Below the pieces are notes generated by a model that had not been told where the DNA came from, did not search any database, and was given only the letters and a program-made list of their open reading frames with translations. Shown here one piece after another: positions 1-38,053 of a DNA stretch of 64,000 nucleotides. The stretch is from NCBI GenBank assembly GCA_014843695.1, contig CM026403.1, forward strand, positions 8,571,728 through 8,635,727, read 5' to 3'. A program made the translations under genes and the position numbers. Source of the DNA: Archivesica marissinica (taxonomy: Eukaryota > Mollusca > Bivalvia > Venerida > Vesicomyidae). How positions within the stretch are numbered: position 1 is the first letter of the stretch; the number at the start of each line of letters is the position of its first letter.

Positions 1-3000
1 CTAGATTGCTACACGAGTTACAGTAACCCCTCCATACGTGTTATTGAATGCTAGATTGCTACACGGGTTACAGTACCCCATCTGTACGTATTATTGAATG
101 CTAGATTGCTACACGGGTTACAGTACCCCATCTGTACGTATTATTGAATGCTAGATTGCTATACGAGTTACAGTACCCCCTCCAGACGTATTATTGAATG
201 CTAGATTGCTACACGGGTTACAGTATCCCATCCATACGTGTTATTAAATGCTAGATTGCTACACGGGTTACAGTACCCTCTCCATACGTATTATTGAATG
301 CTAGATTACTACACATGTTACAGTACCCCCTCCATACGTATTATTGAATGCTAGATTGCTACACGAGTTACAGTACCCAGTCTGTACGTATTATTGAATG
401 CTAGATTGTTACACAAGTTACAGTACTCCCTCTGTGCGTATTATTGAATGCTAGATTGCTACACGAGTTACAGTATCCAGTCTGTACGTATTATTGAATG
501 CTAGATTGTTACACGAGTTACAGTAACCCCTCTGTGCGTATTATTGAATGCTAGATTGCTATACGGGTTACAGTACCCCCTCTATACGTATTATTGAATG
601 CTAGATTGCTACACTAGTTAAGTACCCCCTCCATACGTGTTATTGAATGTTAGATTGCTACACGAGTTACAGTACCCTCTCTGTACGTATTATTGAATGC
701 TAGATTACTACACGGGTTACAGTACCCTCTCTGTACGTATTATTGAATGCTAAATTACTACACGGGTTACAGTACACTCTCTGTACGTGTTATTGAATGC
801 TAGATTGCTACACGGGTTACAGATCTCCCTCCATACGTATTATTGAATGCTAGATTACTACACGGGTTACAGTACCCCCTCTGTACATATTATTGAATGC
901 TAGATTGCTACACGAGTTACAGTACCCTCTCTGTACGTGTTATTGAATGCTAGATTGCTACACGGGTTACAGTACCCCCTCTGTACGTATTATTGAATGC
1001 TAGTTTACTACACGGGTTACAGTACCCTCTCTGTACGTATTATTGATTGCTAGATTACTACACGAGTTACAGTACACTCTCTGTACGTATTATTGAATGC
1101 TAGATTGCTAAACGGGTTACAGTACCCACTCTATACGTGTTATTGAATGCTAGATTGCTACACGGGTTACAGTACCCCCTCCATACATGTTATTGAATGC
1201 TAGATTGCTACACGGGTTACAGTACCCCCTCCATACGTGTTATTGAATGCTAGATTGCCACACGGGTTACAGTACCCTCTCTGTACGTATTATTGAATGC
1301 TAGATTGCTACACAGGTTACAGTACCCCCTCCATACGTATTATTGAATGCTAGATTACTACACGGGTTACAGTACCCCCTCCATACGTATTATTGAATGC
1401 TAGATTGCTACACGAGTTACAGTACTCCCTCCATACGTATTATTGAATGCTATATTGCTACACGGGTTACAGTACTCCCTCTGTGCGTGTTATTGAATGC
1501 TAGATTGCTACACGGGTTATAGTACCCCCTCCATACGTGTTATTGAATGCTAGATTGCTACACGGGTTACAGTACCCCCTCTGTACGTATTATTGAATGC
1601 TAGATTGCTACACGGGTTACAGTACCCCCTCCATACGTGTTATTGAATGCTAGATTTCTACACGGGTTACAGTACACCCTCCATACGTGTTATTGAATGC
1701 TAGATTGCTACACGAGTTACAGTAACCCCCCAATACGTGTTATTGAATGCTAGATTGCTACACGGGTTACAGTACCCCATCTGTACGTATTATTGAATGC
1801 TAGATTGCTACACTGGTTACAGTACCCCATCTGTACGTATTATTGAATGCTAGATTGCTATACGAGTTACAGTACCCCCTCCAGACGTATTATTGAATGC
1901 TAGATTGCTACACGGGTTACAGTATCCCATCCATACGTGTTATTAAATGCTAGATTGCTACACGGGTTACAGTACCCTCTCCATACGTATTATTGAATGC
2001 TAGATTACTACACATGTTACAGTACCCCCTCTGTACGTATTATTGTATGCTAGATTGCTACACGAGTTACAGTACACAGTCTGTACGTATTATTGTATGC
2101 TAGATTGTTACACGAGTTACAGTACCCCCTCTGTGCGTATTATTGAATGCTAGATTGCTACACGAGTTACAGTATCCAGTCTGTACGTATTATTGAATGC
2201 TAGATTGTTACACGAGTTACAGTACCCCCTCTGTGCGTATTATTGAATGCTAGATTGCTATACGGGTTACAGTACCCCCTCTATACGTATTATTGAATGC
2301 TAGATTGCTACACTAGTTAAGTACCCCCTCCATACGTGTTATTGAATGTTAGATTGCTACACGAGTTACAGTACCCTCTCTGTACGTATTATTGAATGCT
2401 AGATTACTACACGGGTTACAGTACCCTCTCTGTACGTATTATTGAATGCTAAATTACTACACGGGTTACAGTACACTCTCTGTACGTGTTATTGAATGCT
2501 AGATTGCTACACGGGTTACAGATCTCCCTCCATACGTATTATTGAATGCTAGATTACTACACGGGTTACAGTACCCCCTCTGTACATATTATTGAATGCT
2601 AGATTGCTACACGAGTTACAGTACCCTCTCTGTACGTGTTATTGAATGCTAGATTGCTACACGGGTTACAGTACCCCCTCTGTACGTATTATTGAATGCT
2701 AGATTACTACACGGGTTACAGTACCCTCTCTGTACGTATTATTGATTGCTTGATTACTACACGATTTACAGTACCCTCTGTACGTATTATTGAATGCTAG
2801 ATTGCTACACGAGTTACAGTACCCAGTCTGTACGTATTATTGAATGCTAGATTGCTACACAGGTTACAGTACCCTCTCTGTACGTATTATTGATTGCTAG
2901 ATTACTACACGAGTTACAGTACCCTCTCTGTACGTATTATTGAATGCTAGATTACTACACGTGTTACAGTACCCTCTCTGTACGTATTATTGAATGCTAG

Positions 3001-6000
3001 ATTACTACACGGGTTACAGTACTCTCTCTGTACGTATTATTGAATGCTAGATTACTACACGTGTTACAGTACCCTCTCTGTACATATTATTGAATGCTAG
3101 ATTGCTACACGTGTTACAGTACCCTCTCTGTACGTATTATTGAATGCTAGATTGCTACACAAGTTACAGTACCCTCTCTGTAGGTATTATTGATTGCTAG
3201 ATTACTACACGAGTTACAGTACCCTCTCTGTACGTATTATTGATTGCTAGATTACTTCACGAGTTACAGTACCCTCTCTGTACGTATTATTGACTGCTAG
3301 ATTGCTACACGAGTTACAGTACCCCCTCCATACGTGTTATTGAATGCTAGATTGCTACACGGGTTACAGTACCCTCTCTGTACGTATTATTGAATGCTAG
3401 ATTGCTACACAGGTTACAGTACCCCCTCCATACGTATTATTGAATGCTAGATTACTACACGGGTTACAGTACCCCCTCCATACGTATTATTGAATGCTAG
3501 ATTGCTACACGAGTTACAGTACTCCCTCCATACGTATTATTGAATGCTATATTGCTACACGGGTTACAGTACTCCCTCTGTGCGTGTTATTGAATGCTAG
3601 ATTGCTACACGGGTTATAGTACCCCCTCCATACGTGTTATTGAATGCTAGATTGCTACACGGGTTACAGTACCCCCTCTGTACGTATTATTGAATGCTAG
3701 ATTGCTACACGGGTTACAGTACCCCCTCCATACGTGTTATTGAATGCTAGATTGCTACACGGGTTACAGTACCCCCTCCATACGTGTTATTGAATGCTAG
3801 ATTGCCACACGGGTTACAGTATCCCATCCATATGTGTTATTGAATACTAGATTGCTAAACGGGTTACAGTACCCCCTCCATACGTGTTATTGAATGTTAG
3901 ATTTCTACACGGGTTACAGTACACCCTCCATACGTGTTATTGAATGCTAGATTGCTACACGAGTTACAGTAACCCCTCCATACGTGTTATTGAATGCTAG
4001 ATTGCTACACGGGTTACAGTACCCCATCTGTACGTATTATTGAATGCTAGATTGCTACACGGGTTACAGTACCCATCTGTACGTATTATTGAATGCTAGA
4101 TTGCTATACGAGTTACAGTACCCTCTCTGTACGTGTTTTTGTGCTAGATTGCTACACGGGTTACAGTACCCCCTCTGTACGTATTATTGAATGCTAGATT
4201 ACTACACGGGTTACAGTACCCTCTCTGTACGTATTATTGAATGCTAGATTACTACACGTGTTACAGTACCCTCTCTGTACGTATTATTGAATGCTAGATT
4301 ACTACACGTGTTACAGTACCCTCTCTGTACATATTATTGAATGCTAGATTGCTACACGTGTTACAGTACCCTCTCTGTACGTATTATTGAATGCTAGATT
4401 GCTACACAAGTTACAGTACCCTCTCTGTAGGTATTATTGATTGCTAGATTACTACACGAGTTACAGTACCCTCTCTGTACGTATTATTGATTGCTAGATT
4501 ACTTCACGAGTTACAGTACCCTCTCTGTACGTATTATTGACTGCTAGATTGCTACACGAGTTACAGTACCCCCTCCATACGTGTTATTGAATGCTAGATT
4601 GCTACACGGGTTACAGTACCCTCTCTGTACGTATTATTGAATGCTAGATTGCTACACAGGTTACAGTACCCCCTCCATACGTATTATTGAATGCTAGATT
4701 ACTACACGGGTTACAGTACCCCCACCATACGTATTATTGAATGCTAGATTGCTACACGAGTTACAGTACTCCCTCCATACGTATTATTGAATGCTATATT
4801 GCTACACGGGTTACAGTACTCCCTCTGTGCGTGTTATTGAATGCTAGATTGCTACACGGGTTATAGTACCCCCTCCATACGTGTTATTGAATGCTAGATT
4901 GCTACACGGGTTACAGTACCCCCTCTGTACGTATTATTGAATGCTAGATTGCTACACGGGTTACAGTACCCCCTCCATACGTGTTATTGAATGCTAGATT
5001 GCTACACGGGTTACAGTACCCCCTCCATACGTGTTATTGAATGCTAGATTGCCACACGGGTTACAGTATCCCATCCATACGTGTTATTGAATACTAGATT
5101 GCTAAACGGGTTACAGTACCCCCTCCATACGTGTTATTGAATGTTAGATTTCTACACGGGTTACAGTACACCCTCCATACGTGTTATTGAATGCTAGATT
5201 GCTACACGAGTTACAGTAACCCCTCCATACGTGTTATTGAATGCTAGATTGCTACACGGGTTACAGTACCCCATCTGTACGTATTATTGAATGCTAGATT
5301 GCTACACGGGTTACAGTACCCCCTCTGTACGTATTATTGAATGCTAGATTGCTACACGAGTTACAGTACCCCCTCCATACGTGTTATTGAATACTAGATT
5401 GCTAAACGGGTTACAGTACCCCCTCCATACGTGTTATTGAATGTTAGATTTCTACACGGGTTACAGTACACCCTCCATACGTGTTATTGAATGCTAGATT
5501 GCTACACGAGTTACAGTAACCCCTCCATACGTGTTATTGAATGCTAGATTGCTACACGGGTTACAGTACCCCATCTGTACGTATTATTGAATGCTAGATT
5601 GCTACACGGGTTACAGTACCCCATCTGTACGTATTATTGAATGCTAGATTGCTATACGAGTTACAGTACCCCCTCCAGACGTATTATTGAATGCTAGATT
5701 GCTACACGGGTTACAGTATCCCATCCATATGTGTTATTAAATGCTAGATTGCTACACGCGTTACAGTACCCTCTCCATACGTATTATTGAATGCTAGATT
5801 ACTACACATGTTACAGTACCCCTCTGTACGTATTATTGAATGCTAGATTGCTACACGAGTTACAGTACCCAGTCTGTACGTATTATTGAATGCTAGATTG
5901 TTACACGAGTTACAGTACTCCCTCTGTGCGTATTATTGAATGCTAGATTGCTACACGAGTTACAGTATCCAGTCTGCTGTACGTATTATTGAATGCTAGA

Positions 6001-9000
6001 ATGTTACACGAGTTACAGTACCCCCTCTGTGCGTATTATTGAATGCTAGATTGCTATACGGGTTACAGTACCCCCTCTATACGTATTATTGAATGCTAGA
6101 TTGCTACACTAGTTAAGTACCCCCTCCATACGTGTTATTGAATGTTAGATTGCTACACGAGTTATAGTACCCTCTCTGTACGTATTATTGAATGCTAGAT
6201 TACTACACGGGTTACAGTACCCTCTCTGTACGTATTATTGAATGCTAAATTACTACACGGGTTACAGTACACTCTCTGTACGTGTTATTGAATGCTAGAT
6301 TGCTACACGGGTTACAGATCTCCCTCCATACGTATTATTGAATGCTAGATTACTACACGGGTTACAGTACCCCCTCTGTACATATTATTGAATGCTAGAT
6401 TGCTACACGAGTTACAGTACCCTCTCTGTACGTGTTTTTGAATGCTAGATTGCTACACGGGTTACAGTACCCCCTCTGTACGTATTATTGAATGCTAGAT
6501 TACTACACGGGTTACAGTACCCTCTCTGTACGTATTATTGAATGCTAGATTACTACACGAGTTACAGTACCCTCTGTACGTATTATTGAATGCTAGATTG
6601 CTACACGGGTTACAGTACCCTCTCTGTACGTATTATTGAATGCTAGATTGCTACACGGGTTACAGTACCCTCTCTGTACATATTATTGAATGCTAGATTG
6701 CTACACGGGTTACAGTACCCTCTCTGTACGTATTATTGAATGCTAGATTGCTACACGAGTTACAGTACCCTCTCTGTACGTATTATTGATTGCTAGATTA
6801 CTACACGAGTTACAGTACCCTCTCTGTACGTATTATTGAATGCTAGATTACTACACGAGTTACAGTACCCTCTCTGTACGTATTATTGAATGCTAGATTG
6901 CTACACGGGTTACAGTACCCCCTCTGTACGTATTATTGAATGCTAGATTGCTACACGGGTTACAGTACCCTCTCTGTACGTATTATTGAATGCTAGATTG
7001 CTACACGGGTTACAGTACCCCCTCTGTACGTATTATTGAATGCTAGATTACTACACGGGTTACAGTACCCCCTCCATACGTATTATTGAATGCTAGATTG
7101 CTACACGAGTTACAGTACCCCCTCCATACGTATTATTGAATGCTATATTGCTACACGGGTTACAGTACTCCCTCTGTGCGTGTTATTGAATGCTAGATTG
7201 CTACACGGGTTATAGTACCCCCTCCATACGTGTTATTGAATGCTAGATTGCTACACGGGTTACAGTACCCCCTCTGTACGTATTATTGAATGCTAGATTG
7301 CTACACGGGTTACAGTACCCCCTCCATACGTGTTATTGAATGCTAGATTGCTACACGGGTTACAGTACCCCCTCCATACGTGTTATTGAATGCTAGATTG
7401 CCACACGGGTTACAGTATCCCATCCATATGTGTTATTGAATACTAGATTGCTAAACGGGTTACAGTACCCCCTCCATACGTGTTATTGAATGTTAGATTT
7501 CTACACGGGTTACAGTCACCCTCCATACGTGTTTTGAATGCTAGATTGCTCACGAGTTACAGTACCCTCCATACGTGTTATTGAATGCTAGATTGCTACA
7601 CGGGTTACAGTACCCCATCTGTACGTATTATTGAATGCTAGATTGCTACACGGGTTACAGTACCCCATCTGTACGTATTATTGAATGCTAGATTGCTATA
7701 CGAGTTACAGTACCCCCTCCAGACGTATTATTGAATGCTAGATTGCTACACGGGTTACAGTATCCCATCCATACGTGTTATTAAATGCTAGATTGCTACA
7801 CGGGTTACAGTACCCTCTCCATACGTATTATTGAATGCTAGATTACTACACATGTTACAGTACCCCCTCTGTACGTATTATTGAATGCTAGATTGCTACA
7901 CGAGTTACAGTACCCAGTCTGTGCGTATTATTGAATGCTAGATTGCTACACGAGTTACAGTATCCAGTCTGTACGTATTATTGAATGCTAGATTGTTACA
8001 CGAGTTACAGTAACCCCTCTGTGCGTATTATTGAATGCTAGATTGCTATACGGGTTACAGTACCCCCTCTATACGTATTATTGAATGCTAGATTGCTACA
8101 CTAGTTAAGTACCCCCTCCATACGTGTTATTGAATGTTAGATTGCTACACGAGTTACAGTACCCTCTCTGTACGTATTATTGAATGCTAGATTACTACAC
8201 GGGTTACAGTACCCTCTCTGTACGTATTATTGAATGCTAAATTACTACACGGGTTACAGTACACTCTCTGTACGTGTTATTGAATGCTAGATTGCTACAC
8301 GGGTTACAGTTCTCCCTCCATACGTATTATTGAATGCTAGATTACTACACGGGTTACAGTACCCCCTCTGTACGTATTATTGAATGCTAGATTGCTACAC
8401 GAGTTACAGTACCCTCTCTGTACGTGTTATGAATGCTAGATTGCTACACGGGTTACAGTACCCCCTCTGTACGTATTATTGAATGCTAGTTTACTACACG
8501 GTTACAGTACCCTCTCTGTACGTATTATTGATTGCTAGATTACACACAGTTACAGTACACTCTCTGTACGTATTATTGAATGCTAGATTGCTAAACGGGT
8601 TACAGTACCCACTCTATACGTATTATTGAATGCTAGATTACTACACGTGTTACAGTAACCTCTCTGTACATATTATTGAATGCTAGATTGCTACACGGGT
8701 TACAGTACCCTCTCTGTAGGTATTATTGAATGCTAGATTACTACACGAGTTACAGTACCCTCTCTGTACGTATTATTGATTGCTAGATTACTACACGAGT
8801 TACAGTACCCTCTCTGTACGTATTATTGAATGCTAGATTGCTACACGAGTTACAGTACCCCCTCCATACGTGTTATTGAATGCTAGATTGCTACACGGGT
8901 TACAGTACCCTCTCTGTACGTATTATTGAATGCTAGATTGCTACACAGGTTACAGTACCCCCTCCATACGTATTATTGAATGCTAGATTACTACACGGGT

Positions 9001-9139
9001 TACAGTACCCCCTCCATACGTATTATTGAATGCTAGATTGCTACACGAGTTACAGTACTCCTTCCATACGTATTATTGAATGCTATATTGCTACACGGGT
9101 TACAGTACTCCCTCTGTGCGTGTTATTGAATGCTAGATT
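1..9139. repeat. 50-bp minisatellite/satellite array, about 183 copies
   Basis: A head-to-tail 50-bp unit beginning 'ctagattgctacac' and ending 'ttattgaatg' fills the left edge of the window without interruption. Units differ at a few recurrent positions (cgggtt/cgagtt, ctccatac/ctctgtac, cgtatt/cgtgtt). Rare diagnostic variants recur in blocks, for example the one-base-deleted 'ctagttaagtac' near 614, 2314, 6106 and 8101, so the array has a longer, irregular higher-order structure. It runs into the N gap on the right and beyond the window on the left. No gene is seen inside it. By position it lies in or beyond the intron after exon 8 of the minus-strand BAIAP3-like gene. Confidence 0.97.
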
Positions 9140-11172: not shown

Positions 11173-11271
11173 TGCAGGATTGGCGGCGGGGTTCTTGTAG
11201 GTGTAATGTAGGAACTGACGATAAGCTTGATAGTAATCCTCACAGGAGAAGTGACACACCTCATCCAAATC
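11173..11271 (-). CDS. BAIAP3-like: BAIAP3/UNC13D-like gene, exon 8 (linker after C2A)
   Basis: On the minus strand this is a 99-nt, 33-codon phase 0-0 exon. It has acceptor ...TTGTTTGTTTAG before GATTTGGATG and donor CCTGCA|GTAAGTAAC. It encodes DLDEVCHFSCEDYY followed by QAYRQFLHYTYKN and a short PAANPA end. In this family the segment after the first C2 domain carries a YxxaxxxLL-type helix leading to the MUN region, and this peptide has that character. It joins exon 7 (ends AAACAG, phase 0) in frame. The acceptor lies exactly at the edge of the 51/55-bp satellite, whose every unit repeats this acceptor and exon start. No further exon is found to the left before the gap. Confidence 0.8.
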
Positions 11272-14200
11272 CTAAACAAACAAACAAACAAGACATTGCA
11301 ACAGTAGAAGTGACACACATCATCCAAATCCTAAACAAACAAACAAGACATTGCAACAGTAGAAGTGATACACCTCATCCAAATCCTAAACAAACAAACA
11401 AGACATTGCAACAGTAGAAGTGATACACCTCATCCAAATCCTAAACAAACAAACAAGAGATTGCAACAGTAGAAGTGACACACCTCATCCAAATCCTAAA
11501 CAAACAAACAAGAGATTGCAACAGTAGAAGTGATACACCACATCCAAATCCTAAACAAACAAACAAGAGATTGCAACAGTAGAAGTGACACACCTCATCC
11601 AAATCCTAAACAAACAAACAAGACATTGCAACAGTAGAAGTGATACACCTCATGCAAATCCTAAACAAACAAGACATTGCAACAGTAGAAGTGATACACC
11701 TCATCCAAATCCTAAACAAACAAACAAGACATTGCAACAGTAGAAGTGATACACCACATCCAAATCCTAAACAAACAAGACATTGCAACAGTAGAAGTGA
11801 CACACCACATCCAAATACTAAACAAACAAGAGACTGCAACAGTAGAAGTGATACACCTCATCCAAATCCTAAACAAACAAGAGACTGCAACAGTAGAAGT
11901 GATACACCTCATCCAAATCCTAAACAAACAAGAGACTGCAACAGTAGAAGTGACACACCTCACCCAAATCCTAAACAAACAAACAAGAGATTGCAACAGT
12001 AGAAGTGATACACCTCATCCAAATCCTAAACAAACAAGATATTGCAACAGTAGAAGTGATACACCTCATCCAAATCCTAAACAAACAAACAAGAGATTGC
12101 AACAGTAGAAGTGATACACCTCATCCAAATCCTAAACAAACAAGACATTGCAACATTAGAAGTGATACACCTCATCCAAATCCTAAACAAACAAACAAGA
12201 GATTGCAACAGTAGAAGTGACACACATCATCCAAATCCTAAACAAACAAACAAGACATTGCAACAGTAGAAGTGATACACCTCATCCAAATCCTAAACAA
12301 ACAAACAAGACATTGCAACAGTAGAAGTGATACACCTCATCCAAATCCTAAACAAACAAACAAGACATTGCAACAGTAGAAGTGACACACCTCACCTAAA
12401 TCCTAAACAAACAAGAGATTGCAACAGTAGAAGTGATACACCTCATCCAAATCCTAAACAAACAAGAGATTGCAACAGTAGAAGTGATACACCTCATCCA
12501 AATCCTAAACAAACAAGATATTGCAACAGTAGAAGTGACACACCTCATCCAAATCCTAAACAAACAAACAAGAGATTGCAACAGTAGAAGTGATACACCT
12601 CATCCAAATCCTAAACAAACAAACAAGACATTGCAACAGTAGAAGTGATACACCTCATCCAAATCCTAAACAAACAAACAAACAAACAAGACATTGCAAC
12701 AGTAGAAGTGGCACACCTCATCCAAATCCTAAACAAACAAACAAGACATTGCAACAGTAGAAGTGATACACCTCATCCAAATCCTAAACAAACAAACAAG
12801 ACATTGCAACAGTAGAAGTGACACACCTCACCCAAATCCTAAACAAACAAGAGATTGCAACAGTAGAAGTGATACACCTCATCCAAATCCTAAACAAACA
12901 AGAGATTGCAACAGTAGAAGTGATACACCTCATCCAAATCCTAAACAAACAAACAAGACATTGCAACAGTAGAAGTGACACACCTCACCCAAATCCTAAA
13001 CAAACAAGAGATTGCAACAGTAGAAGTGATACACCTCATCCAAATCCTAAACAAACAAGAGATTGCAACAGTAGAAGTGATACACCTCATCCAAATCCTA
13101 AACAAACAAGATATTGCAACAGTAGAAGTGACACACCTCATCCAAATCCTAAACAAACAAACAAGACATTGCAACAGTAGAAGTGATACACCTCATACAA
13201 ATCCTAAACAAACAAACAAGAGATTGCAACAGTAGAAGTGATACACCTCATCCAAATCCTAAACAAACAAGAGACTGCAACAGTAGAAGTGACACACCTC
13301 ACCCAAATCCTAAACAAACAAACAAGAGATTGCAACAGTAGAAGTGATACACCTCATCCAAATCCTAAACAAACAAGAGACTGCAACAGTAGAAGTGACA
13401 CACCTCACCCAAATCCTAAACAAACAAACAAGAGATTGCAACAGTAGAAGTGATACACCTCATCCAAATCCTAAACAAACAAACAAGAGATTGCAACAGT
13501 AGAAGTGACACACCTCACCCAAATCCTAAACAAACAAACAAGAGACTGCAACAGTAGAAGTGATACACCTCACCCAAATCCTAAACAAACAAACAAGAGA
13601 TTGCAACAGTAGAAGTGATACACCACATCCAAATCCTAAACAAACAAACAAGAGATTGCAACAGTAGAAGTGATACACCTCATCCAAATCCTAAACAAAC
13701 AAACAAGAGAGTGCAACAGTAGAAGTGATACACCTCATCCAAATCCTAAACAAACAAACAAGAGAGTGCAACAGTAGAAGTGATACACCTCATCCAAATC
13801 CTAAACAAACAAACAAGAGAGTGCAACAGTAGAAGTGATACACCTCATCCAAATCCTAAACAAACAAACAAGAGATTGCAACAGTAGAAGTGACACACCT
13901 CACCCAAATCCTAAACAAACAAACAAGAGACTGCAACAGTAGAAGTGATACACCTCATCCAAATCCTAAACAAACAAACAAGAGATTGCAACAGTAGAAG
14001 TGATACACCTCATCCAAATCCTAAACAAACAAACAAGAGATTGCAACAGTAGAAGTGATACACCTCATCCAAATCCTAAACAAACAAACAAGAGAGTGCA
14101 ACAGTAGAAGTGATACACCACATCCAAATCCTAAACAAACAAACAAGAGATTGCAACAGTAGAAGTGATACACCTCATCCAAATCCTAAACAAACAAGAG

Positions 14201-15712
14201 ACTGCAACAGTAGAAGTGACACACCTCACCCAAATCCTAAACAAACAAGACAGTGCAACAGTAGAAGTGATACACCTCATCCAAATCCTAAACAAACAAG
14301 AGATTGCAACAGTAGAAGTGACACACCTCACCCAAATCCTAAACAAACAAGACAGTGCAACAGTAGAAGTGATACACCTCATCCAAATCCTAAACAAACA
14401 AGAGATTGCAACAGTAGAAGTGATACACCTCATCCAAATCCTAAACAAACAAACAAGAGATTGCAACGGTAGAAGTGACACACCTCATCCAAATCCTAAA
14501 CAAACAAACAAGACATTGCAACAATAGAAGTGATACACCTCATCCAAATCCTAAACAAACAAGAGATTGCAACAGTAGAAGTGATACACCTCATCCAAAT
14601 CCTAAACAAACAAACAAGAGATTGCAACAGTAGAAGTGATACACCTCATCCAAATCCTAAACAAACAAACAAGAGATTGCAACAGTAGAAGTGATACACC
14701 TCATCCAAATCCTAAACAAACAAACAAGAGATTGCAACAGTAGAAGTGATACACCTCATCCAAATCCTAAACAAACAAACAAGAGATTGCAACAGTAGAA
14801 GTGATACACCTCATCCAAATCCTAAACAAACAAACAAGAGATTGCAACAGTAGAAGTGATACACCTCATCCAAATCCTAAACAAACAAACAAGAGATTGC
14901 AACAGTAGAAGTGATACACCTCATCCAAATCCTAAACAAACAAGAGATTGCAACAGTAGAAGTGATACACCTCATCCAAATCCTAAACAAACAAACAAGA
15001 GATTGCAACAGTAGAAGTGATACACCTCATCCAAATCCTAAACAAACAAACAAGACATTGCAACAGTAGAAGTGACACACCTCATCCAAATCCTAAACAA
15101 ACAAACAAGACATTGCAACAGTAGAAGTGACACACCTCATCCAAATCCTAAACAAACAAGAGATTGCAACAGTAGAAGTGATACACCTCATCCAAATCCT
15201 AAACAAACAAACAAACAATACATTGCAACATTAGAAGTGACACACCTCATCCAAATCCTAAACAAACAAACAATACATTGCAACATTAGAAGTGACACAC
15301 CTCATGCAAATCCTAAACAAACAAACAAGACATTGCAACATTAGAAGTGACACACCTCATCCAAATCCTAAACAAACAAGAGATTGCAACAGTAGAAGTG
15401 ATACACCTCATCCAAATCCTAAACAAACAAACAATACATTGCAACATTAGAAGTGACACACCTCATCCAAATCCTAAACAAACAAGTCATTGCAACAGTA
15501 GAAGTGATACACCTCATGCAAATCCTAAACAAACAAACAAGAGATTGCAACAGTAGAAGTGATACACCTCATCCAAATCCTAAACAAACAAACAAGACAT
15601 TGCAACATTAGAAGTGACACACCTCATCCAAATCCTAAACAAACAAACAAGAGATTGCAACAGTAGAAGTGATACAACTCATCCAAATCCTAAACAAACA
15701 AGAGATTGCAAC
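11240..15712. repeat. 51/55-bp minisatellite derived from the exon 8 splice acceptor, about 80 copies
   Basis: On the plus strand the unit reads 'cacctcatccaaatcctaaa', then 'caaacaaacaag', then 'agattgcaacagtagaagtg'. On the minus strand each unit is a (TTTG)n tract, TTTAG, GATTTGGATGAGGTG and TCACTTCTACTG, that is, the pyrimidine tract, AG acceptor and first ~30 coding bases of exon 8. Unit length varies with the number of AAAC blocks: 51, 55, and 59 nt for the copy next to the exon. The first 32 bases of the interval are the exon itself. The array fills most of intron 7. Confidence 0.95.
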
Positions 15713-15828
15713 AGAGCTACAAATGTCTCCCACTACAATTCATGGTAACAGACATACATGTATCATCCATAACCCCCCCCCTACATAACCCCCCAACTTT
15801 GGTCATGAAATCTGTGGGTTGTGGCATG

Positions 15829-22081: not shown

Positions 22082-22180
22082 TTTTTCACGGTGTGGTGCT
22101 TTTCCTGCCTGGCATCATGTTGCGGGTCCTTATCACACACATAAATGTGAACTTCATCCGTCTGAAAGTCGTCAACATCT
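22082..22180 (-). CDS. BAIAP3-like: BAIAP3/UNC13D-like gene, exon 5 (C2A, Ca2+-binding loop 3)
   Basis: This is a 99-nt minus-strand exon entered in phase 2 and left in phase 2, with acceptor TTGTTTTCAG|AGATGTT and donor GTGAAAAA|GTAAGCC. Its first base completes CT|A (Leu) of exon 4, and it continues DVDDFQTDEVHIYVCDKD then PQHDARQEKHHTVK. V-D-D-F-x-T-D-x-[LV]-H-[LI]-x-[VI]-x-D-x-D is the strand-plus-loop 3 signature of the first C2 domain in this family. The D-x-D-x3-D acidic triplet expected for calcium binding is present (CDKDPQHD). The family usually has WD where this protein has CD. Confidence 0.9.
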
Positions 22181-23537: not shown

Positions 23538-26500
23538 GTGCGGATACTTCACATGCACGTTATACATTAGTCAGACATGCGGATACTTCACATACACGAT
23601 ATACATCAGTCAGACATGTGGATACTTCACATACACGTTATACATCAGTCAGACGTGCGGATACTTCACATACACGATATACATCAGTCAGACATGATAC
23701 TTCACATGCACGATATACATCAGTCAGACGTGCGGATACTTCACATGCACGATATACATCAGTCAGACATGATACTTCACATGCACGATATACATCAGTC
23801 AGACATGCGGATACTTCACATACACGATATACATCAGTCAGACATGATACTTCACATGCACGATATACATCAGTCGGACGTGCGGATACTTCACATGCAC
23901 GATATACATCAGTCAGACGTGCGGATACTTCACATACACGATATACATCAGTCAGACGTGCGGATACTTCACATACACGATATACATCAGTCAGACATGC
24001 GGATACTTCACATACACGATATACATCAGTCAGACGTGCGGATACTTCACATACACGATATACATCAGTCAGACGTGCGGATACTTCACATGCACGATAT
24101 ACATCAGTCAGACATGCGGATACTTCACATGCATGTTATACATCAGTCAGACGTGCGGATACTTCACATGCACGATATACATCAGTCAGACGTGCGGATA
24201 CTTCACATACACGATATACATCAGTCAGACGTGCGGATACTTCACATACACGATATACATCAGTCAGACGTGCGGATACTTCACATACACGATATACATC
24301 AGTCAGACGTGCGGATACTTCACATACACGATATACATCACTCAGACATGCGGATACTTCACATACACGATATACATCAGTCAGACGTGCGGATACTTCA
24401 CATACACGATATACATCAGTCAGACATGCGGATACTTCACATACACGATATACATCAGTCAGACGTGCGGACACTTCACATGCATGTTATACATCAGTCA
24501 GACATGATACTTCACATGCATGTTATACATCAGTCAGACGTGCGGATACTTCACATACACGTTATACATCAGTCAGACATGCGGATACTTCACATACACG
24601 ATATACATCAGTCAAACGTGCGGATACTTCACATACACGATATACATCAGTCAGACATGCGGATACTTCACATGCACGATATACATCAGTCAGACGTGCG
24701 GACACTTCACATGCATGTTATACATCAGTCAGACATGATACTTCACATGCATGTTATACATCAATCAGACATGATACTTCACATGCATGTTATACATCAG
24801 TCAGACATGATACTTCACATGCACGATATACATCAGTCAGACATGATACTTCACATGCATGTTATACATCAGTCAGACATGATACTTCACATGCATGTTA
24901 TACATCAGTCAGACATGATACTTCACATGCATGTTATACATCAGTCAGACATGATACTTCACATGCACGATATACATCAGTCAGACATGATACTTCACAT
25001 GCACGTTATACATCAGTCAGACATGATACTTCACATGCACGATATACATCAGTCAGACATGCGGATACTTCACATACACGATATACATCAGTCAGACATG
25101 ATACTTCACATGCACGATATACATCAGTCAGACATGATACTTCACATGCACGATATACATCAGTCAGACATGCGGATACTTCACATGCACGATATACATC
25201 AGTCAGACATGCGGATACTTCACATGCACGATATACATCAGTCAGACATGCGGATACTTCACATGCACGATATACATCAGTCAGACATGCGGATACTTCA
25301 CATGCACGATATACATCAGTCAGACATGATACTTCACATGCACGTTATACATCAGTCAGACATGATACTTCACATACACGTTATACATCAGTCAGACATG
25401 ATACTTCACATGCACGTTATACATCAGTCAGACATGATACTTCACATACACGTTATACATCAGTCAGACGTGCGGATACTTCACATACACGTTATACATC
25501 AGTCAGACATGCGGATACTTCACATACACGATATACATCAGTCAGACATGCGGATACTTCACATGCACGATATACATCAGTCAGACATGCGGATACTTCA
25601 CATACACGATATACATCAGTCAGACATGTGGATACTTCACATGCACGATATACATCAGTCAGACATGTGGATACTTCACATGCACGATATACATCAGTCA
25701 GACATGCGGATACTTCACATGCACGATATACATCAGCCAGACATGCGGATACTTCACATACACGATATACATCAGTCAGACGTGCGGATACTTCACATAC
25801 ACGATATACATCAGTCAGACATGATACTTCACATGCACGATATACATCAGTCAGACATGATACTTCACATGCACGTTATACATCAGTCAGACATGCGGAT
25901 ACTTCACATGCACGTTATACATCAGTCAGACATGATACTTCACATGCACGTTATACATCAGTCAGACATGATACTTCACATGCACGTTATACATCAGTCA
26001 GACATGCGGATACTTCACATGCACGTTATACATCAGTCAGACATGATACTTCACATGCACGTTATACATCAGTCAGACATGATACTTCACATGCACGTTA
26101 TACATCAGTCAGACATGCGGATACTTCACATGCACGTTATACATCAGTCAGACATGATACTTCACATGCACGTTATACATCAGTCAGACATGATACTTCA
26201 CATGCACGTTATACATCAGTCAGACATGCGGATACTTCACATGCACGTTATACATCAGTCAGACATGATACTTCACATGCACGTTATACATCAGTCAGAC
26301 ATGATACTTCACATGCACGTTATACATCAGTCAGACATGCGGATACTTCACATGCACGTTATACATCAGTCAGACATGATACTTCACATGCATGTTATAC
26401 ATCAGTCAGACATGATACTTCACATGCACGATATACATCAGTCAGACATGATACTTCACATGCACGTTATACATCAGTCAGACATGATACTTCACATGCA

Positions 26501-29131
26501 CGTTATACATCAGTCAGACATGATACTTCACATGCACGATATACATCAGTCAGACGTGCGGATACTTCACATACACGATATACATCAGTCAGACATGCGG
26601 ATACTTCACATGCACGTTATACATCAGTCAGACATGATACTTCACATGCACGTTATACATCAGTCAGACATGATACTTCACATGCACGATATACATCAGT
26701 CAGACATGCGGATACTTCACATGCACGATATACATCAGTCAGACATGCGGATACTTCACATACACGTTATACATCAGTCAGACATGCGGATACTTCACAT
26801 ACACGTTATACATCAGTCAGACATGCGGATACTTCACATACACGTTATACATCAGTCAGACATGCGGATACTTCACATACACGTTATACATCAGTCAGAC
26901 ATGCGGATACTTCACATACACGTTATACATCAGTCAGACATGCGGATACTTCACATACACGTTATACATCAGTCAGACATGCGGATACTTCACATACACG
27001 TTATACATCAGTCAGACATGCGGATACTTCACATACACGTTATACATCAGTCAGACATGCGGATACTTCACATACACGTTATACATCAGTCAGACATGCG
27101 GATACTTCACATACACGTTATACATCAGTCAGACATGCGGATACTTCACATACACGTTATACATCAGTCAGACATGCGGATACTTCACATACACGTTATA
27201 CATCAGTCAGACATGCGGATACTTCACATGCACGATATACATCAGTCAGACGTGCGGATACTTCACATACACGATATACATCAGTCAGACGTGCGGATAC
27301 TTCACATACACGATATACATCAGTCAGACGTGCGGATACTTCACATACACGATATACATCAGTCAGACGTGCGGATACTTCACATACACGATATACAACA
27401 CTCAGACATGCGAATACTTCACATACACGTTATACATCAGTTGGACGTGCGGATACTTCACATGCATGTTATACATCAGTCAGACATGCGGATACTTCAC
27501 ATGCACGATATACATCAGTCAGACATGCGGATACTTCACATACACGATATACATCAGTCAGACGTGCGGATACTTCACATACACGATATACATCAGTCAG
27601 ACGTGCGGATACTTCACATACACGATATACATCAGTCAGACATGCGGATACTTCACATACACGTTATACATCAGTCGGACGTGCGGATACTTCACATGCA
27701 CGATAATGATATACATCAGTCAGACATGCGGATACTTCACATACACGATATACATCAGTCAGACGTGCGGATACTTCACATACACGATATACATCAGTCA
27801 GACGTGCGGATACTTCACATACACGATATACATCAGTCAGACATGCGGATACTTCACATACCGGTACACAATATACATCAGTCAGACGTGCGGATACTTC
27901 ACATACCGGTACACAATATACATCAGTCAGACATGCGGATACTTCACATACCGGTACACAATATACATCAGTCAGACGTGCGGATACTTCACATACCGGT
28001 ACACAATATACATCAGTCAGACATGCGGATACTTCACATACCGGTACACAATATACATCAGTCAGACGTGCGGATACTTCACATACCGGTACACAATATA
28101 CATCAGTCAGACATGCGGATACTTCACATACCGGTACACAATATACATCAGTCAGACGTGCGGATACTTCACATACCGGTACACAATATACATCAGTCAG
28201 ACATGCGGATACTTCACATACCGGTACACAATATACATCAGTCAGACGTGCGGATACTTCACATACCGGTACACAATATACATCAGTCAGACATGCGGAT
28301 ACTTCACATACCGGTACACAATATACATCAGTCAGACGTGCGGATACTTCACATGCACGATATACATCAGTCAGACGTGCGGATACTTCACATGCACGAT
28401 ATACATCAGTCAGACGTGCGGATACTTCACATACACGATATACATCACTCAGACATGCGGATACTTCACATACACGTTATACATCAGTCGGACGTGCGGA
28501 TACTTCACATGCACGATATACATCAGTCAGACATGCGGATACTTCACATACACGATATACATCAGTCAGACATGCGGATACTTCACATGCACGATATACA
28601 TCAGTCAGACATGCGGATACTTCACATGCATGTTATACATCAGTCAGACATGCGGATACTTCACATGCACGATATACATCAGTCAGACATGCGGATACTT
28701 CACATGCACGATATACATCAGTCAGACATGCGGATACTTCACATGCACGATATACATCAGTCAGACGTGCGGATACTTCACATACACAATATACATCAGT
28801 CAGACATGCGGATACTTCACATACACGATATACATCAGTCAGACGTGCGGATACTTCACATACACGATATACATCAGTCAGACGTGCGGATACTTCACAT
28901 ACACGATATACATCAGTCAGACATGCGGATACTTCACATACACGTTATACATCAGTCGGACGTGCGGATACTTCACATGCACGATATACATCAGTCAGAC
29001 ATGCGGATACTTCACATGCACGATATACATCAGTCAGACATGCGGATACTTCACATACACGATATACATCAGTCGGACGTGTGGATACTTCACATACACG
29101 ATATACATCAGGCAGACATGCGGATACTTTA
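23538..29131. repeat. 36/39/45-bp minisatellite, about 145 copies
   Basis: The core unit is 'gcggatacttcacatacacg' followed by 'atatacatcagtcagacgt' (39 bp). A 36-bp form lacks GCG, and a 45-bp form carries 'ccggtacaca' (27857-28330). All lengths are multiples of three, so two plus-strand frames stay open over long stretches. Local higher-order patterns are seen: a 39+36+36 triplet around 25.9-26.4 kb, more than ten identical 39-mers at 26.75-27.2 kb, and alternating acat/acgt 45-mers. It fills most of intron 4. Confidence 0.97.
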
Positions 29132-30560: not shown

Positions 30561-30846
30561 AGCGTAAATTCCTCATTCCACTTTGGATGTGATGAATTTT
30601 TGATTGTACTGGTTTTCTGGATGTCCATATCAACAGATCCCTTTGCCCCAATACTGGCTGATACAGTATGTGTAAGATTAGAGGGGTTCTTGGCTAGTAC
30701 CTGTGGCGAAACTGTGGGCGAGGTCTTATGTGGATTCTTCGATGGAATCCGAGGGGAGAGACTTTTGGGTGAAATGTGGGTGGACGATGCAGTTCCCCTT
30801 GTTGTCGGGTGGTGCACGGACAACAAACAGTAACTGTCACATGTAT
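30561..30846 (-). CDS. BAIAP3-like: BAIAP3/UNC13D-like gene, exon 4 (C2A loop 1 to strand 4)
   Basis: This is a 286-nt minus-strand exon entered in phase 1 and left in phase 2, with acceptor GGTATTTGTAG|ATACATG and donor ACGCT|GTAAGTATG. With the G from exon 3 it reads D-TCDSYCLLSV, then a ~65-residue Ser/Pro-rich insert (SPKSLSPRIPSKNPHKTSP, TVSPQVLAKNPS), then KTSTIKNSSHPKWNEEFT. D-S-Y-C-L-L and K-T-x3-K-N-x2-H-P-x-W-N-E-x-F are core C2 motifs. An insert at this point, between DPYCLL and the KT strand, is also seen in UNC13D-type C2A domains. The repeated S-P sites make it a possible phosphorylation segment (inference). Confidence 0.92.
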
Positions 30847-30958
30847 CTACAAATACCATTTTACATGTGTTTAATCAAATCTTAATAAAATGGAGAGAAT
30901 TTAAATAAGCTCCATAAGTTTAAACAGTATTTATTATTTATTTATTTATTATTTATTC

Positions 30959-32342: not shown

Positions 32343-34161
32343 TAGATAAGGCGCTGAGTGATAATGGCGCTGAGTGATAATGGCGCTGAGTGATAATGTT
32401 GCTGAGTGATAATGTTGCTGAGGGATAATGGTGCCAAGGGATAATGTCGCTGAGTGATAATGTTGCTGAGTGAAAATGTTGCCGAGTGATAATGTCGTGG
32501 GTGATAATGTTGCTGAGGGATAATGTCACTGAGGGATAATGTCACTGAGGGATAATGTCACTGAGGGATAATGTTGCTGAGGGATAATGTCACTGAGGGA
32601 TAATATTGCTGAGGGATAATGTCACTGAGGGATAATATTGCTGAGGTGAGGGATAATGTTGCTGAGGGATAATGTTGCTGAGGGATAATGTCGCCAAGGG
32701 ATAATGTCGCTGAGGGATAATGTCACTGAGGGATAATGTCGCTGATGGATAATGTCACCGAGGGATAATGTCACTGAGGGATAATGTCACTGAGGGATAA
32801 TATTGCTGAGGGATAATGTCACTGAGGGATAATATCGTTGAGGGATAATGTCACTGAGGGATAATGTCACTGAGGGATAATATTGCTGAGGGATAATGTC
32901 ACTGAGGGATAATATCGCTGAGGTGAGGGATAATGTCACTGAGGGATAATATCACTGAGGGATAATGTCACTGAGGGATAATGTCGCTGAGGGATAATGG
33001 CAGCAAGGGATAATGGTGCCAAGGGATAATGTCGCTGAGGGATAATGTCACTGAGGGATAATTTCACTGAGGGATAATGTCGCTGAGGGATAATGTTGCT
33101 GAGGGATAATGTCGCTGAGGGGTAATGGTGGCAAGGGATAATGGTGCTGAGGGATAATATCACTGAGGGATAATGGTGGCAAGGGATAATGTTGCTGAGG
33201 GATAATGTTGCTGAGGGATAATGTCACTGAGGGATAATGGTGCCAAGGGATAATGTTGCTGAGGGATAATGTTGCTGAAGGATAATGGTGCCAAGGGATA
33301 ATATTGCTGAGGGATAATGTTGCTGAGGGATAATGTTGCTGAGGGATAATGTTGCTGAGGGATAATGTCACTGAGGGATAATGTTGCTGAGGGATAATGT
33401 CTCTGAGGGATAATGGTGCCCAGTGATAATGTTGCTGAGGGATAATGTCTCTGAGGGATAATGGTGCCAAGGGATACTGTTGCTGAGGGATAATGTTGCT
33501 GAGGGATGCTGAGGGATAATGTTGCTGAGGGATAATGTTGCTGAGGGATAATGTTGCTGAGGGATAATGTTGCTGAGGGATAATGGTGCCAAGGGATAAT
33601 GTTGCCGAGGGATAATGGTGCCAAGGGATAATGTTGCCGAGGGATAATGGTGCCAAGGGATAATGTTGCCGAGGGATAATGGTGCCAAGGGATAATGTCA
33701 CTGAGGGATAATGTCACTGAGGAATAATGTCACTGAGGGATAATGTCGCTGAGTGATAATGTCACTGAGGGATAATGACACTGAGGGATAATGACACTGA
33801 GGGATAATGTCACTGAGGGATAATGTCACTGAGGGATAATGACACTGAGGGATAATGACACTGAGGGATAATGTCACTGAGGGATAATGTAACTGAGGGA
33901 TAATGTCACTGAGGGATAATGTCGCTGAGGGATAATGTCACTGAGGGATAATGTCACTGAGGGATAATGTCACTGAGGGATAATGTCACTGAGGGATAAT
34001 GTCACTGAGGGATAATGTCACTGAGGGATAATGACACTGAGGGATAATGTCACTGAGGGATAATGACACTGAGGGATAATGACACTGAGGGATAATGACA
34101 CTGAGGGATAATGTAACTGAGGGATAATGTCACTGAGGGATAATGTCACTGAGGGATAATA
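32343..34161. repeat. 16-bp minisatellite, left part, about 114 copies
   Basis: The unit 'gtcactgagggataat' varies at the first positions (gttgct, ggtgcc, gtcgct, gacact). The left third is diverse, while the right end (33.7-34.16 kb) is almost uniform gtcact/gacact. The same array resumes at 40208 after a retrotransposon. ORFs in all three minus frames are trivial because 16 bp is not a multiple of three and the unit lacks stops. Confidence 0.97.
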
Positions 34162-34373
34162 TGAATGAATGAATGGTGTTTTACGGCGCATCGACATCTA
34201 AGGTCATGTAGCGCGCTTTAAAGTTATGTTTATTGTCGAGTGTATGAAATAAAATTCTATATAAGTATATGCATTACGTAAAAATTAATACTAAGAAGTT
34301 ATAAAGACGTAAGATTAATTACAGGTAATATATGAATGAATGATTATTACAAAGGCATGATTAACAATTGATA

Positions 34374-37300
34374 TCACAGCTTATTATAAATTCCTATTGC
34401 CTTGATAAATGATATGATGGACTCTACTCTGATAGAGTCGAAGAGTTTTTTAATGTTGTCCACATTGTAGTACTGCAACCGGATTGGTTGAAGGTCAACA
34501 CAGTATATTAAGATATGCTCCACCGTGTATAGAGTATTGCATGGGATACATTCTGGTGCATCATCTCGTGACAACAGCCATGAATGTGATATTCGAGAAT
34601 GACCAATCCTGAGACGGGCAAGAATGACTTCTTCTCGACGAATAGGCCTGTAAATTGGGCACCATTCGCCAAGTGTTGGTTTGACCGAATGAAGTTTGTT
34701 AAAAATTTCACCATCCCATTGGGCCTGCCAAGAGGATTGAATTAAGGTAAAAATTGTAGATTTAAAATCAGTATAACACACTTTAATCCTAGAAATGGAT
34801 AATGACAAAGCCAGCTTTGCATTCTGATCAGCCATTTCATTTCCTTTTATTCCCATATGACTCGGAAGCCAGCAGAACACAAATGTATTTGTTCTGAAAG
34901 GGAAGAAATCCTTTCAAGCAAAGTACAAACAATATGATTTTCAAACTTTTCATAATACAAAGCCTGTAAAACAGACAAGGAATCAGAGAAAATGATATAT
35001 TGAACATAGTGTGATTCCACTGCAAGATCTAGAGCGAGATCTATGGCCTTCAGTTCGGCAGAGAAAATTGAGGACTTGTTTGGACGTCTACATTTCCGAT
35101 TTTTATTCCCAAAGATTGCTGCTGACGCAACAGTGTCACCAGCTTTTGAACCATCTGTGTATATGGCTTTGAAGTCAGAATACAATTCCCTGATTTCATG
35201 ATATTTTGTTTGAAACTGGCTCCTGTCTGTAATAGACTTTTTATCAGAAGTGAGATCAAAGCGAAACTCGGCAGTTTTAAGGGTCCAAGGAGGAGAATCT
35301 GGGATTTTATACTGTGCAATAGATTTCATGTCAATATGTAGGTCATCTAGACATTGTTCCATGCTTATACCTAGTGGGGCAATAGCTCTCGGTTTTCTTT
35401 GAAACTGCACTTTAAATTGTGGTTGAAAGACCACTTTGTGAGCTGGGTTTAGAGGATTTGACTTGAGTTTCAGTAGGTATTGAAGAGCTAGCTTCTGTCG
35501 TCTAGCATACAGAGAGGGTTCATTTGCTTCAGCATAAAGACTTTTAACAGGGAAGTTCTGAAAGCTCCAAGGACTAATCGTAGACCGTGATTATGTATAG
35601 GATCAAGTATTTTCAGGTACGATTTTCGTGCAGATCCGTAAATTATCGAACCATAATCCAGCTTAGAGCGAACCAATGACCGATAGAGCCGTAGAAGTAC
35701 CTGTCTATCAGCTCCCCAATCGGAATGTGCCACAACCTTTAAAATATTTAGAGCTTTTTGACATTTCTTTTTTAAATTATTGATATGAGGAATGAATGAG
35801 AGTTTTTTTATCAAAGATAACACCTAAAAATTTGTATTCTGAGACTACTTCTACACGTGAGCCATCCAGGTAAATTTCTGGGTCTGGATGAAGTCCACGT
35901 AGATTACAAAAAATGCATACATTTAGTTTTTGATTTAGAAAATTTAAAACCATTTTCATCCGACCAAGTCTGAAGTTTATTCAGACATTGCTGGAGTTGG
36001 CGTTCTATTATGTTCATATTACTAGACCTGAAGCAAATAACAAAATCATCTACATAAAGGGAGCACTCAACCCTGGATTTATTGATTTAACAATATTGTT
36101 TATCTTAATACTAAACAATGTAACGGACAAAATACAACCCTGTGGTACACCCATCTGCTGTTCCCGAGCATCTGATAGGGTATTACAAACACGAACACGA
36201 AAAAGTCTTTCATTTAAAAATGCAGAAATAAATAATGGAAGGCGTCCTCTGAAGTCAAAGTCGTGAAGATCTTTTAAAATGCCATATTTCCAGGTTGTGT
36301 CATAAGCACTCTCAAGGTCGAAAAATACTGAAGCAACATGTTGTTTATTGACAAAGCCCTCTCTTATAAATGTTTCGAAACGAACTAGATGATCCAGTGT
36401 GCTTCGCTGCTGACGAAAGCCACTCTGGACATTAACAATTAAATGATTTGATTCGAGAAACCATACAAGCCGGTTGTTTACCATTCTTTCCATAGTTTTA
36501 CATATAAAACTTGTTAACGCTATGGGTCTATAGTTGTTTGGATCCTTTTTATCCTTATCTGGTTTTGGTATTGGGATGACTAAAGCCTCCCTCCAAGATG
36601 TAGGAAATTCACCAGTTTGCCATATAGAATTAAACATGTCCAATAATATAAAGAGGGAGGAGCTAGGTAGATGTTTTAAGAATTGATAGTGGATCTTATC
36701 TGGACCTGGGGATGTATCATGTGCTTTTGACAAAGCAGACTTTAGTTCTTTAAGATTAAATAGTTTGTTGTAATGTTCTTTGTTCTTTGAATTGAAGTTT
36801 AGTTTTTTCTTTTCTTTAGTGTCTTTGAATTTCTGAAATTTTTGTGAATAATTATTTGCTGATTATTTTTGTGCAAATGTTTCTGCTAAGGTGTTTGAAA
36901 TTTCCAGAGGTGTGGTGATTTGTTTGTTGTTTGTAGTGAGGTGGCTAATAGGTGAAGTACCTTTGCCATTAATTTTTCTTATCATGTCCCACGTTTTCTT
37001 AGTTGTTGTTCTGTTATTTAGTCTTGATATGTATTGTTTCCAACATTTGCGTTTGCTGCTTTGTATTGTACGTCATGCTTTTGCTCTATATATGCGAATG
37101 TTGTTTAAATTTTCTGTGGTGGGTCTCAAATTGAATTTTCTTATGGCCGATTTCCTATTTTGGATGGCTTTCTTACAATCATCATCATACCAGGGTTTGT
37201 ATGGTCTCTTTGGATTAGGTGAAGTCTGAGGTATGGATTGTTCTGCTGCTTTTATTAGTAATGTAGTGAATAGCTGTGTTTGATCACGACAATCCTTGAA

Positions 37301-38053
37301 TGTTTCATATGAAATTGTTTGTTTACAAAGTTGTTGGAATTTAGTCCAATTTGCTTTAGAAAGTTTCCATCTTCTGGGTTGACTATAAGCTGTTGGCTGA
37401 TTTTCAGATATGAGGATGGGGAAGTGGTCGCTTCCGTGGAGATCATCATCGACTTTCCATGAGAAGTCTGGAAGTATGACTGGGCTACATAGTGTAAGAT
37501 CTATTGCAGAATAGGATCCTGTTCCTGGGTGTAAATATGTTTTGGAAGATGGATCGTTCATGTAAGAAAGAGAATTATCAGAGATGAAATTCTCTATCTG
37601 GAGACCTCTTTGATTTGTATTATTACAACCCCAGATGATGTTATGTGCATTGAAATCACCTATTAGAATATATGGAGAGGGTAATTGTATTATAAGATCA
37701 TTCAGCCTATGTTCTTCAATTGGTTTACTTGGGGGAAGATATAGTGAACACAGTGTGATAGTGCTATGTAATGACAGTCTTACAGCAACAGCTTGTAAGT
37801 TTGTATTTAACAGTAATTCCTTATGTGGAACACTATTATTGACGATGATAGATACCCCACCCTGGGCTTTATCACCATCACTGTATATTTTATTGAAAAT
37901 GGTGTGATGTTTTATAGAAATTGTATCATTTTGTTTCAAAAATGTTTCTTGAAGGCATAACGCAGCAGGTTTATGTTCTTGCACTAAAAGAGAAAGCTCT
38001 GCAAAATTAGATTTTAAACCTCGACAATTCCACTGGATAATTCCATTGGCCAT
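34374..38053 (-). pseudogene. ORF2 of the I/Nimb-like element (endonuclease, RT, RNase H), disrupted
   Basis: Translation starts at MANGIIQWNCRGLKSN (38053). The endonuclease carries QETF, GDFNAHN, SYSAIDLTLC and GSDHFPI. The RT carries SPGPDKIHYQFLK, FFDLESAYDTTW, GVPQGCILSVTLFSIKIN and, in a shifted frame, LYVDDFVICF. RNase H shows AIYTDGSKAG, SAELKAIDLAL and FSDSLSVLQAL, then in another frame CWLPSHMGIKGNEMAD. It ends after C-x2-C-x7-H-x4-C (PECIPCNTLYTVEHILIYC) at 34374. Breaks: TGA after IRIYRAKA (37073), TAA near 36860, and frameshifts near 36070, 35940, 35820, 35530 and 34850. Several breaks fall in A or T runs, so assembly errors may account for some. The catalytic motifs are all readable, so the copy is young or recently lost. 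Confidence 0.9.

Follow-up and report, generated by a model that had tools for sequence, protein, structure and literature searches.

How does a spliceosome find the start of an exon when scores of near-identical acceptors stand in front of it? The question is raised by a 64,000-nucleotide stretch of the genome of the vesicomyid bivalve Archivesica marissinica (GenBank assembly GCA_014843695.1, contig CM026403.1, positions 8,571,728–8,635,727; hereafter the window), in which a 4.4-kb minisatellite on the minus strand repeats an intron–exon junction and ends directly at the putative exon whose start it copies (exon D). We consider it probable that this array is a minisatellite of the type called a mirage in amphioxus, that it arose by slippage and grew by homogenised amplification, that the exon-proximal acceptor is chosen through exon definition, and that the locus is one case of a wider process. 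To our knowledge, the choice of the spliceosome among equal neighbouring sites has mostly been studied with a few engineered decoys, and the loci described here offer a natural test set: one exon is preceded by 83 near-identical acceptors, another is followed by 4 near-identical donors, and the sample points to many more in the genome.

The array and its units

The array (11272–15714, minus strand) consists of a first intron tail followed by 82 junction units of 51–63 bp. Tandem Repeats Finder (TRF) reports it as a single array at 11242–15701 with a period of 55, 82.8 copies, and 93% matches. Delimited by a script at TTTAG followed by G or T and ATTT, the 82 complete units measure 55 nt (52 units), 51 nt (27), 59 nt (2), or 63 nt (1), the steps in length being whole TTTG blocks within a T-rich tract. 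All 82 combine the first 30 nt of the exon with 21–33 nt of intron end, and by the same minus-strand count 83 near-identical TTTAG acceptors, the exon's own included, lie between 15689 and 11271. TTTAG occurs at 83/83 boundaries, and no unit of double length, as a lost TTTAG would leave, was found; since 36 of the 51 non-indel alignment columns lack variation, this invariance is not unusual. The exon-like 30-nt head exists in 17 versions, of which GATTTGGATGAGGTGTATCACTTCTACTGT is carried by 45 of the 82 units. Compared with the start of the exon at 11271–11173, each head has 1–3 mismatches in 30 nt, and the unit consensus differs at 2/30 positions; at position 26 the exon has C, and 82/82 units have A. 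On the plus strand of the window outside the array, no match to the exon head has fewer than 12 mismatches, and the minus-strand script found only the exon itself, so the likeness between units and exon is not due to chance. These counts bear out an earlier note on this DNA, which had described about 80 minus-strand units of T-rich tract, TTTAG, and some 30 exon bases, had identified the repeat unit with the intron–exon junction, and had placed the real exon directly after the last unit.

The edges of the array point to how it may have begun. Read directly, the 5′ edge (15690–15720, minus strand) is GTAGCT/CTGT/TGCAATCTCTTGTTTGTTTAG, with CTGT at 15714–15711; the array starts in the intron at GTAGCT/CTGT/TGCAATC and stops in the exon at CTTCTC/CTGT/GAGGATT. 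CTGT is thus common to both edges, and the stretch between the two copies equals one unit, which we infer to be the footprint expected of slipped duplication between short repeats flanking the junction. In the first step we propose, approximately 51 bp (the terminal 21 nt of the intron plus the initial 30 nt of the exon) would have been tandemly duplicated by slippage between the intron CTGT and the exon CTGT. In a second step, slippage or unequal exchange would have extended and homogenised the array to 82 units. The units fall into 36 distinct types in irregular order, and adjoining units are slightly more alike than random pairs (3.80 vs 4.28 differences; minimum in 500 permutations, 3.47), consistent with local slippage; no higher-order repeat was found beyond short runs of identical units. 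The direction of origin proposed earlier, from junction to array, is therefore supported. Since the 82 units lie upstream of the exon's own junction they count as intron, and the array would make up 4.4 kb of an intron of 7,058 bp (18329–11272).

Could such a structure have been made by the assembler? The array is 1.1 kb away from a gap of 1000 N, and the redundant contig C2043 duplicates the region. This contig is identical to the window over 10140–34160 (24 kb) and 98.4% identical over 34072–43624 (9.6 kb), which suggests that the same haplotype was probably assembled twice at 10140–34160 and that the apparent homozygosity there is an effect of assembly. Because C2043 is identical to the window across the array, it provides no second allele. 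However, the 36 irregularly ordered unit types, the occurrence of a donor-type array (described below) in two diverged haplotypes, and comparable arrays at other loci make it extremely improbable that an assembly artefact explains the array. Its copy number, taken from one assembled haplotype, could differ from the true one. A comparison of array DNA with its own 1.54-Gb genome, in which common words were skipped, gave 166 matches, and those listed lie only in the window and in C2043. A 40-bp array 30 kb from the junction array has 58 copies in the window (41305–43624) and 87 in the other assembled haplotype (C2043, 31133–34600); provided that the assembly is correct, arrays in the A. marissinica genome vary in copy number.

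Exon D and its host gene

Exon D (11173–11271, minus strand; 99 nt, DLDEVCHFSCEDYYQAYRQFLHYTYKNPAANPA) contributes its first 30 nt to the unit. It is open for 33 codons, is bounded by TTTAG and GTAAGT, and has phase 0 at both ends, its start fitting the phase-0 end of the preceding coding exon C (18446–18330, minus strand; EIAALGTDDWYDVLAVGSTKGKPKAIGKCHLRMSLSYKQ, donor CAG/GTACGT). Together, these features strongly suggest that D is an exon. Upstream on the same strand, exons A (30561–30850, 5′ end approximate and set by eye) and B (22082–22180) each appear to encode part of a C2 domain: A has an open frame and a Pfam C2 match of its own (E 1.5e-5), B is covered by Pfam and Protein Data Bank (PDB) sequence matches, and the last codon of A is completed by the first base of B, as judged by eye. 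Exons B and C are out of phase with each other; a search for an exon between them found none, two weak candidates being seen and not adopted.

With X in place of the missing pieces in phmmer and Pfam queries, the joined exons A–D match Pfam C2 (PF00168) at E 5.6e-10. Their best PDB sequence match is unc-13 homolog D (E 0.0099), in an alignment that spans A–C, with exon C inside it and exon D uncovered; the second is an unrelated C2 protein (E 0.010) that spans just part of A and B. A search for homologous proteins of the joined exons returned none at E up to 1. The host gene thus encodes a C2-domain protein, perhaps of UNC13D/BAIAP3-like type. The earlier assignment to an exocytosis gene gains tentative support from the C2 domain and the unc-13 match. 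MUN domain (PF06292) matches are listed on C13, C14, and contig C2107. A paralogue of exon C with 50% identity lies at G000:C19:48556354-48556479.

An array of this kind might make the acceptor unusable, exon D being skipped, dead, or alternative, or the gene decaying. Exon D alone gave no convincing match to PDB sequences (best E 0.08, to a protein unrelated by name), searches of the 60 kb that follow with human proteins and crude patterns turned up no exons after D, and the paralogue of exon C could be counted on the same side. Nevertheless, D is open and phase-matched and has a strong donor, and exons A, B, and C are open as well. We therefore regard a dead or skipped exon as unlikely, though as the most serious of the alternatives considered here.

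Junction arrays elsewhere in the window and the genome

The acceptor array is not unique. Counting splice signals in 16 of the arrays of the window revealed a second junction array, of donor type, at a putative exon that we call N1 (46008–46115, minus strand; HENIYRGLLRCLLHPMGASDDTVGLRLGDLLDHLRE, acceptor TTTTCAG, donor GTAAGC, phase 0). Compared by eye, N1 appears to resemble the human UNC13D N-terminus; queried alone against PDB sequences it gave 0 matches. It lies on the same strand as exons A–D and is possibly part of the same gene. The donor array (45714–46069, minus strand) has an 88-bp unit made of the tail of N1, GAGAGAG/GTAAG, and the intron start, and presents four donors, with first intron bases at 46007, 45921, 45833, and 45745; TGGGA stands at both edges, as seen by eye. 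Use of any of the three later donors would lead to a stop at codon 40. The C2043 haplotype also has four donors, and the spacings in the two copies (86/88/88 and 86/85/88) differ by 3 nt. Other long minisatellites with units of 37–50 bp take up a large share of the window (1–9139, 23539–29129, 50798–53591, 55685–56959, and 57780–59666), and none of these five matched the simple acceptor and donor patterns used.

To estimate how common junction arrays are, we surveyed 88 exons located by protein homology, comprising 80 of 130 listed Pkinase matches and 8 of 19 listed MUN rows (rows that include second-contig copies); left out were L034 (the same exon as L032), L068, and L020, L024, L025, and L029 (contig C2107 copies of C14 exons). 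The automated test asked whether 20 nt taken at the exon edge occur again in the neighbouring intron with at most 3 mismatches, over 176 exon sides whose ends, being ends of homology matches, are approximate. Flanks measured about 430–700 bp at 78 exons and 1.5 kb at the other 10, and the resulting rate may be a lower bound. One TRF run covered 49 loci (L020 among them), and the inspection of nearby arrays by eye covered the first 49. The survey is small, draws on two protein families, and depends partly on judgement by eye.

The test was positive for 15 of the 176 exon sides, compared with 0/176 for the wrong flank, 0/176 for reversed windows, and 4/880 for the flanks of other exons. Counting as clear a unit with about 12 or more coding nt and a splice site, inspection of the 15 positive sides left 8 clear (L023, L066, L072, L074, the donor side of L085, L089, L097, and L101), 3 borderline (L026, L028, and the acceptor side of L085, with 1 copy), and 4 rejected (L027, L065, L079, and L099), the array or match in the last group not being built of exon sequence. 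A ninth clear case, L059, was seen by eye and had been missed by the test. Clear junction repeats were thus judged present at 9/88 exons (8/80 kinase and 1/8 MUN). L066 and L074 repeat just about 12 exon nt in 2–3 copies. Among the other clear cases, L097 (43-bp unit, 8.1 copies) repeats 31 nt of exon head (DIKGGNVMLM) in the same design as the acceptor array of the window, and further examples lie at donors, namely L085 (55 bp, 8.3 copies), L089 (94 bp, 4.0 copies), L072 (113 bp, 4.8 copies), and L101 (59 bp, 5.2 copies). By eye, we take L085 to be CDK-like, L089 PLK-like, L072 MKK-like, and L101 GRK-like. Some sampled kinase exons look like recent copies of one another (L042 and L056, L050 and L055, with common flanking arrays), none of them among the positives. 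In seven of the nine clear cases (L066, L072, L074, L085, L089, L097, and L101) the splice site of the decoys has the same sequence as that of the exon itself, single exceptions at most aside; the other two are taken up below. Beside an exon of the C14 UNC13-like gene that the survey did not include, a 35-bp array of 17 copies (L030, 2216–2814; also L031, 3–601) ends in TATACAG/GAACTATTTGCGTATTGTAATGAG with units carrying TATACAG/GAACTATTT, and is probably a further junction array of acceptor type.

Minisatellite coverage (TRF repeats with a period of at least 10) is 28–31% of sampled positions at 350–500 bp from the matched exon ends, and falls to 8% (14/176) at the end itself, 4.5% (8/176) at 25 nt inside, and 0/176 at 100 nt inside. 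Junction arrays appear to form the tail of the distribution of minisatellites in introns, thinned yet tolerated, a profile more easily reconciled with a neutral or mildly harmful by-product than with a device. The array of the window would accordingly be one case of a wider process in which arrays that reach into exon edges form the tolerated tail of that distribution. If the survey rate were to extend to the whole genome, about 1 in 10 exons and thousands of loci would carry splice-junction minisatellites, and the spliceosome would routinely pick, by position, the exon-proximal site among several to tens of near-identical donors or acceptors; we put this forward tentatively, at somewhat less than an even chance. 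Were it true, the genome would put exon definition to a natural test on a large scale and would show one way for exon edges to give rise to longer introns.

Acceptors that compete for a single exon are familiar as tandem acceptors (NAGNAG and similar), which usually comprise two sites a few nt apart, whereas the array described here has 83 over 4.4 kb. The closest parallel comes from amphioxus, where mirages are described in the BflGb6 and BflGb9 globins, Adh3, PGBD5, and TnC (PMC3087553; PMC3902484). According to the same reports, the BflGb6 repeat joins an intron 3′ end to the 5′ part of an exon and that of BflGb9 covers a 3′ exon boundary, AG/GT signals are kept in many units, BflGb6 length differs between haplotypes, and splicing is reported as undisturbed (PMC3087553; PMC3902484). 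The array in the window has two features of a mirage, a unit with exon and intron sequence of the adjacent boundary and splice signals repeated in the units, and it shares the BflGb6 design. In contrast to the 6 and 3 units of 150–160 bp of BflGb6, it has 82 units of about 55 bp and lies in another genome (1.54 Gb) with 9/88 exons judged affected; normal splicing in amphioxus was seen by reverse-transcription PCR, whereas the present array is known from sequence. In human IFI6 (6-16), a minisatellite at an exon edge has units with usable splice donors (PMC4526556, citing Turri 1995); there the donor side is repeated and the repeat donors are used in mRNA, while here the acceptor side is repeated and the sites are putative. 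The Caenorhabditis elegans intronic minisatellite CeRep25B is reported to be linked to alternative splicing and over-represented near many such regions (PMC4039745). Like the present array it lies near splicing decisions; unlike it, CeRep25B is one named repeat that is not built from a local exon junction. At the level of titles and abstract openings, with the subscription literature mostly uncovered, no fitting mollusc or bivalve precedent was found, which is no proof of absence. The kind of element is thus already known from amphioxus mirages; new here are its much larger size and, it seems, the frequency suggested by the survey.

Choice among the acceptors

What would follow if an upstream acceptor were used? 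Joined to exon C, 81 of the 83 acceptors meet an in-frame stop upstream of the donor of D, another causes a frameshift, and the last is correct. The first stop is at codon 17 for 26 acceptors (the TAG of the 51-nt unit itself), at codon 22 for 45 (the TGA of the next unit), and elsewhere for 10, while the last 59-nt unit shifts the frame with no stop within the exon. The arithmetic of the earlier note, in which 51-nt units meet their own TAG, 55-nt units a TGA in the next unit, and the 59-nt unit a frameshift, is therefore correct. Its description of these stops as a built-in filter is not supported, because 2000 of 2000 unit shuffles reach the observed fraction. Shuffles that keep TTTAG and the unit lengths are stopped in 99.5% of cases on average, against 98.8% observed (81/82 upstream acceptors), and with the acceptor TAG removed 82% of shuffles still reach the observed fraction. 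Mixed unit lengths, some of them not divisible by three, run through all frames, so stops are automatic. The shuffles exclude the frame filter as a sign of selection, and there is no sign of selection for the stop property.

This result bears directly on the idea of a splicing rheostat, in which array copy number would set the use of decoy acceptors and thereby tune the amount of correct mRNA and exocytosis protein. The idea draws on 83 competing acceptors whose upstream choices give 81 stops and 1 frameshift, and on the capacity of copy number to vary, as in the 40-bp array at 41305 (58 vs 87 copies between haplotypes). However, the stop pattern is what shuffled units give, C2043 carries the same array sequence and so provides no second allele, and junction arrays seem too common for the bespoke control of one gene. 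A rheostat is accordingly very unlikely in our estimation, and a regulatory role of the array is unsupported.

A related proposal is that the array binds protein. The motif UGUUUGUUUGU, a CELF-type GU-rich element, occurs 59 times within the array, and the rest of the window's minus strand has 0 copies; the copies might recruit a splicing repressor and so mask the decoys, or act as a sponge. Repeat RNAs that gather RNA-binding proteins are the subject of PMC6224606. On the other hand, UGUUUGUUUGU is a by-product of the (TTTG)n tract, its binding is putative, and it is absent from the consensus units in the survey, which makes protein binding a shade less plausible still than a rheostat. Two further candidates were rejected. 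Fold-back RNA structure over the last units and the exon has a z of +1.73, with 98/100 shuffles folding equally well or better. A consensus branch point created by the C-to-A change at unit position 26 is contradicted by the occurrence of yUnAy 15–45 nt upstream of only 6/83 acceptors; a relaxed UnAy lies upstream of 81/83.

The reading that we prefer is a slippage-born mirage whose exon-proximal acceptor is chosen by position. In its third step, the last acceptor would most likely be used, since the single donor, 99 nt downstream, would pair across the exon with the nearest site by preference (exon definition). Wrong choices would give a frameshift or a stop and then nonsense-mediated decay, a consequence that follows from unit sequence and needs no selection. 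Because local sequence hardly separates the sites, and decoys match the exon's own site in 7/9 clear cases, choice by position seems likeliest. The candidate mechanisms make different predictions. Scanning or first-come kinetics would select the first acceptor of an acceptor array; exon definition would select its last acceptor and, in a donor array, the first donor. A first-come choice made during transcription fits donor arrays and picks the wrong end of acceptor arrays, whereas shortest-exon choice, as in exon definition, explains both types if the genes are spliced normally.

Several observations weigh against this reading. First, both the use of the last acceptor and the exon status of 11173–11271 are read from sequence rather than from transcripts, exon D has no detected homologue among PDB sequences, and none of the listed MUN matches is on C18, the chromosome of the window. 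Second, the remainder of the exon borders a junction array on just one side, and the site that yields a conserved protein is therefore exon-proximal, being the last acceptor or the first donor, by construction; its position is no evidence for a mechanism. Third, sequence can matter. In L023 (C14 UNC13-like gene, donor type, 41 bp, 37 copies), 32 decoy donors are weak and one is intact besides the exon's own, nearly all decoy donors lacking 4 nt of GTAAGT, and these decoys have possibly been disarmed. In L059 (38 bp, 10.7 copies, donor type), the decoys read GTAAGT and the exon's own donor GTACGT, which may make the decoys stronger than the real site. Finally, the last intron tail (11272–11300, minus strand), directly before the exon's own acceptor, is among the 3/83 longest T-rich tracts (those of 59- or 63-nt units); this is weak evidence, and the longer tract may be a minor added help in site choice.

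Junction arrays suggest a way in which exon edges can feed the growth of introns, and gene predictors could be misled by such arrays. Apart from its minisatellites, the window contains transposable element remnants on the minus strand at 34377–36086 and 62199–62766, with transposase-like frames recognised by eye and a weak RNase H match, below the cut-off, at 34377–34913.

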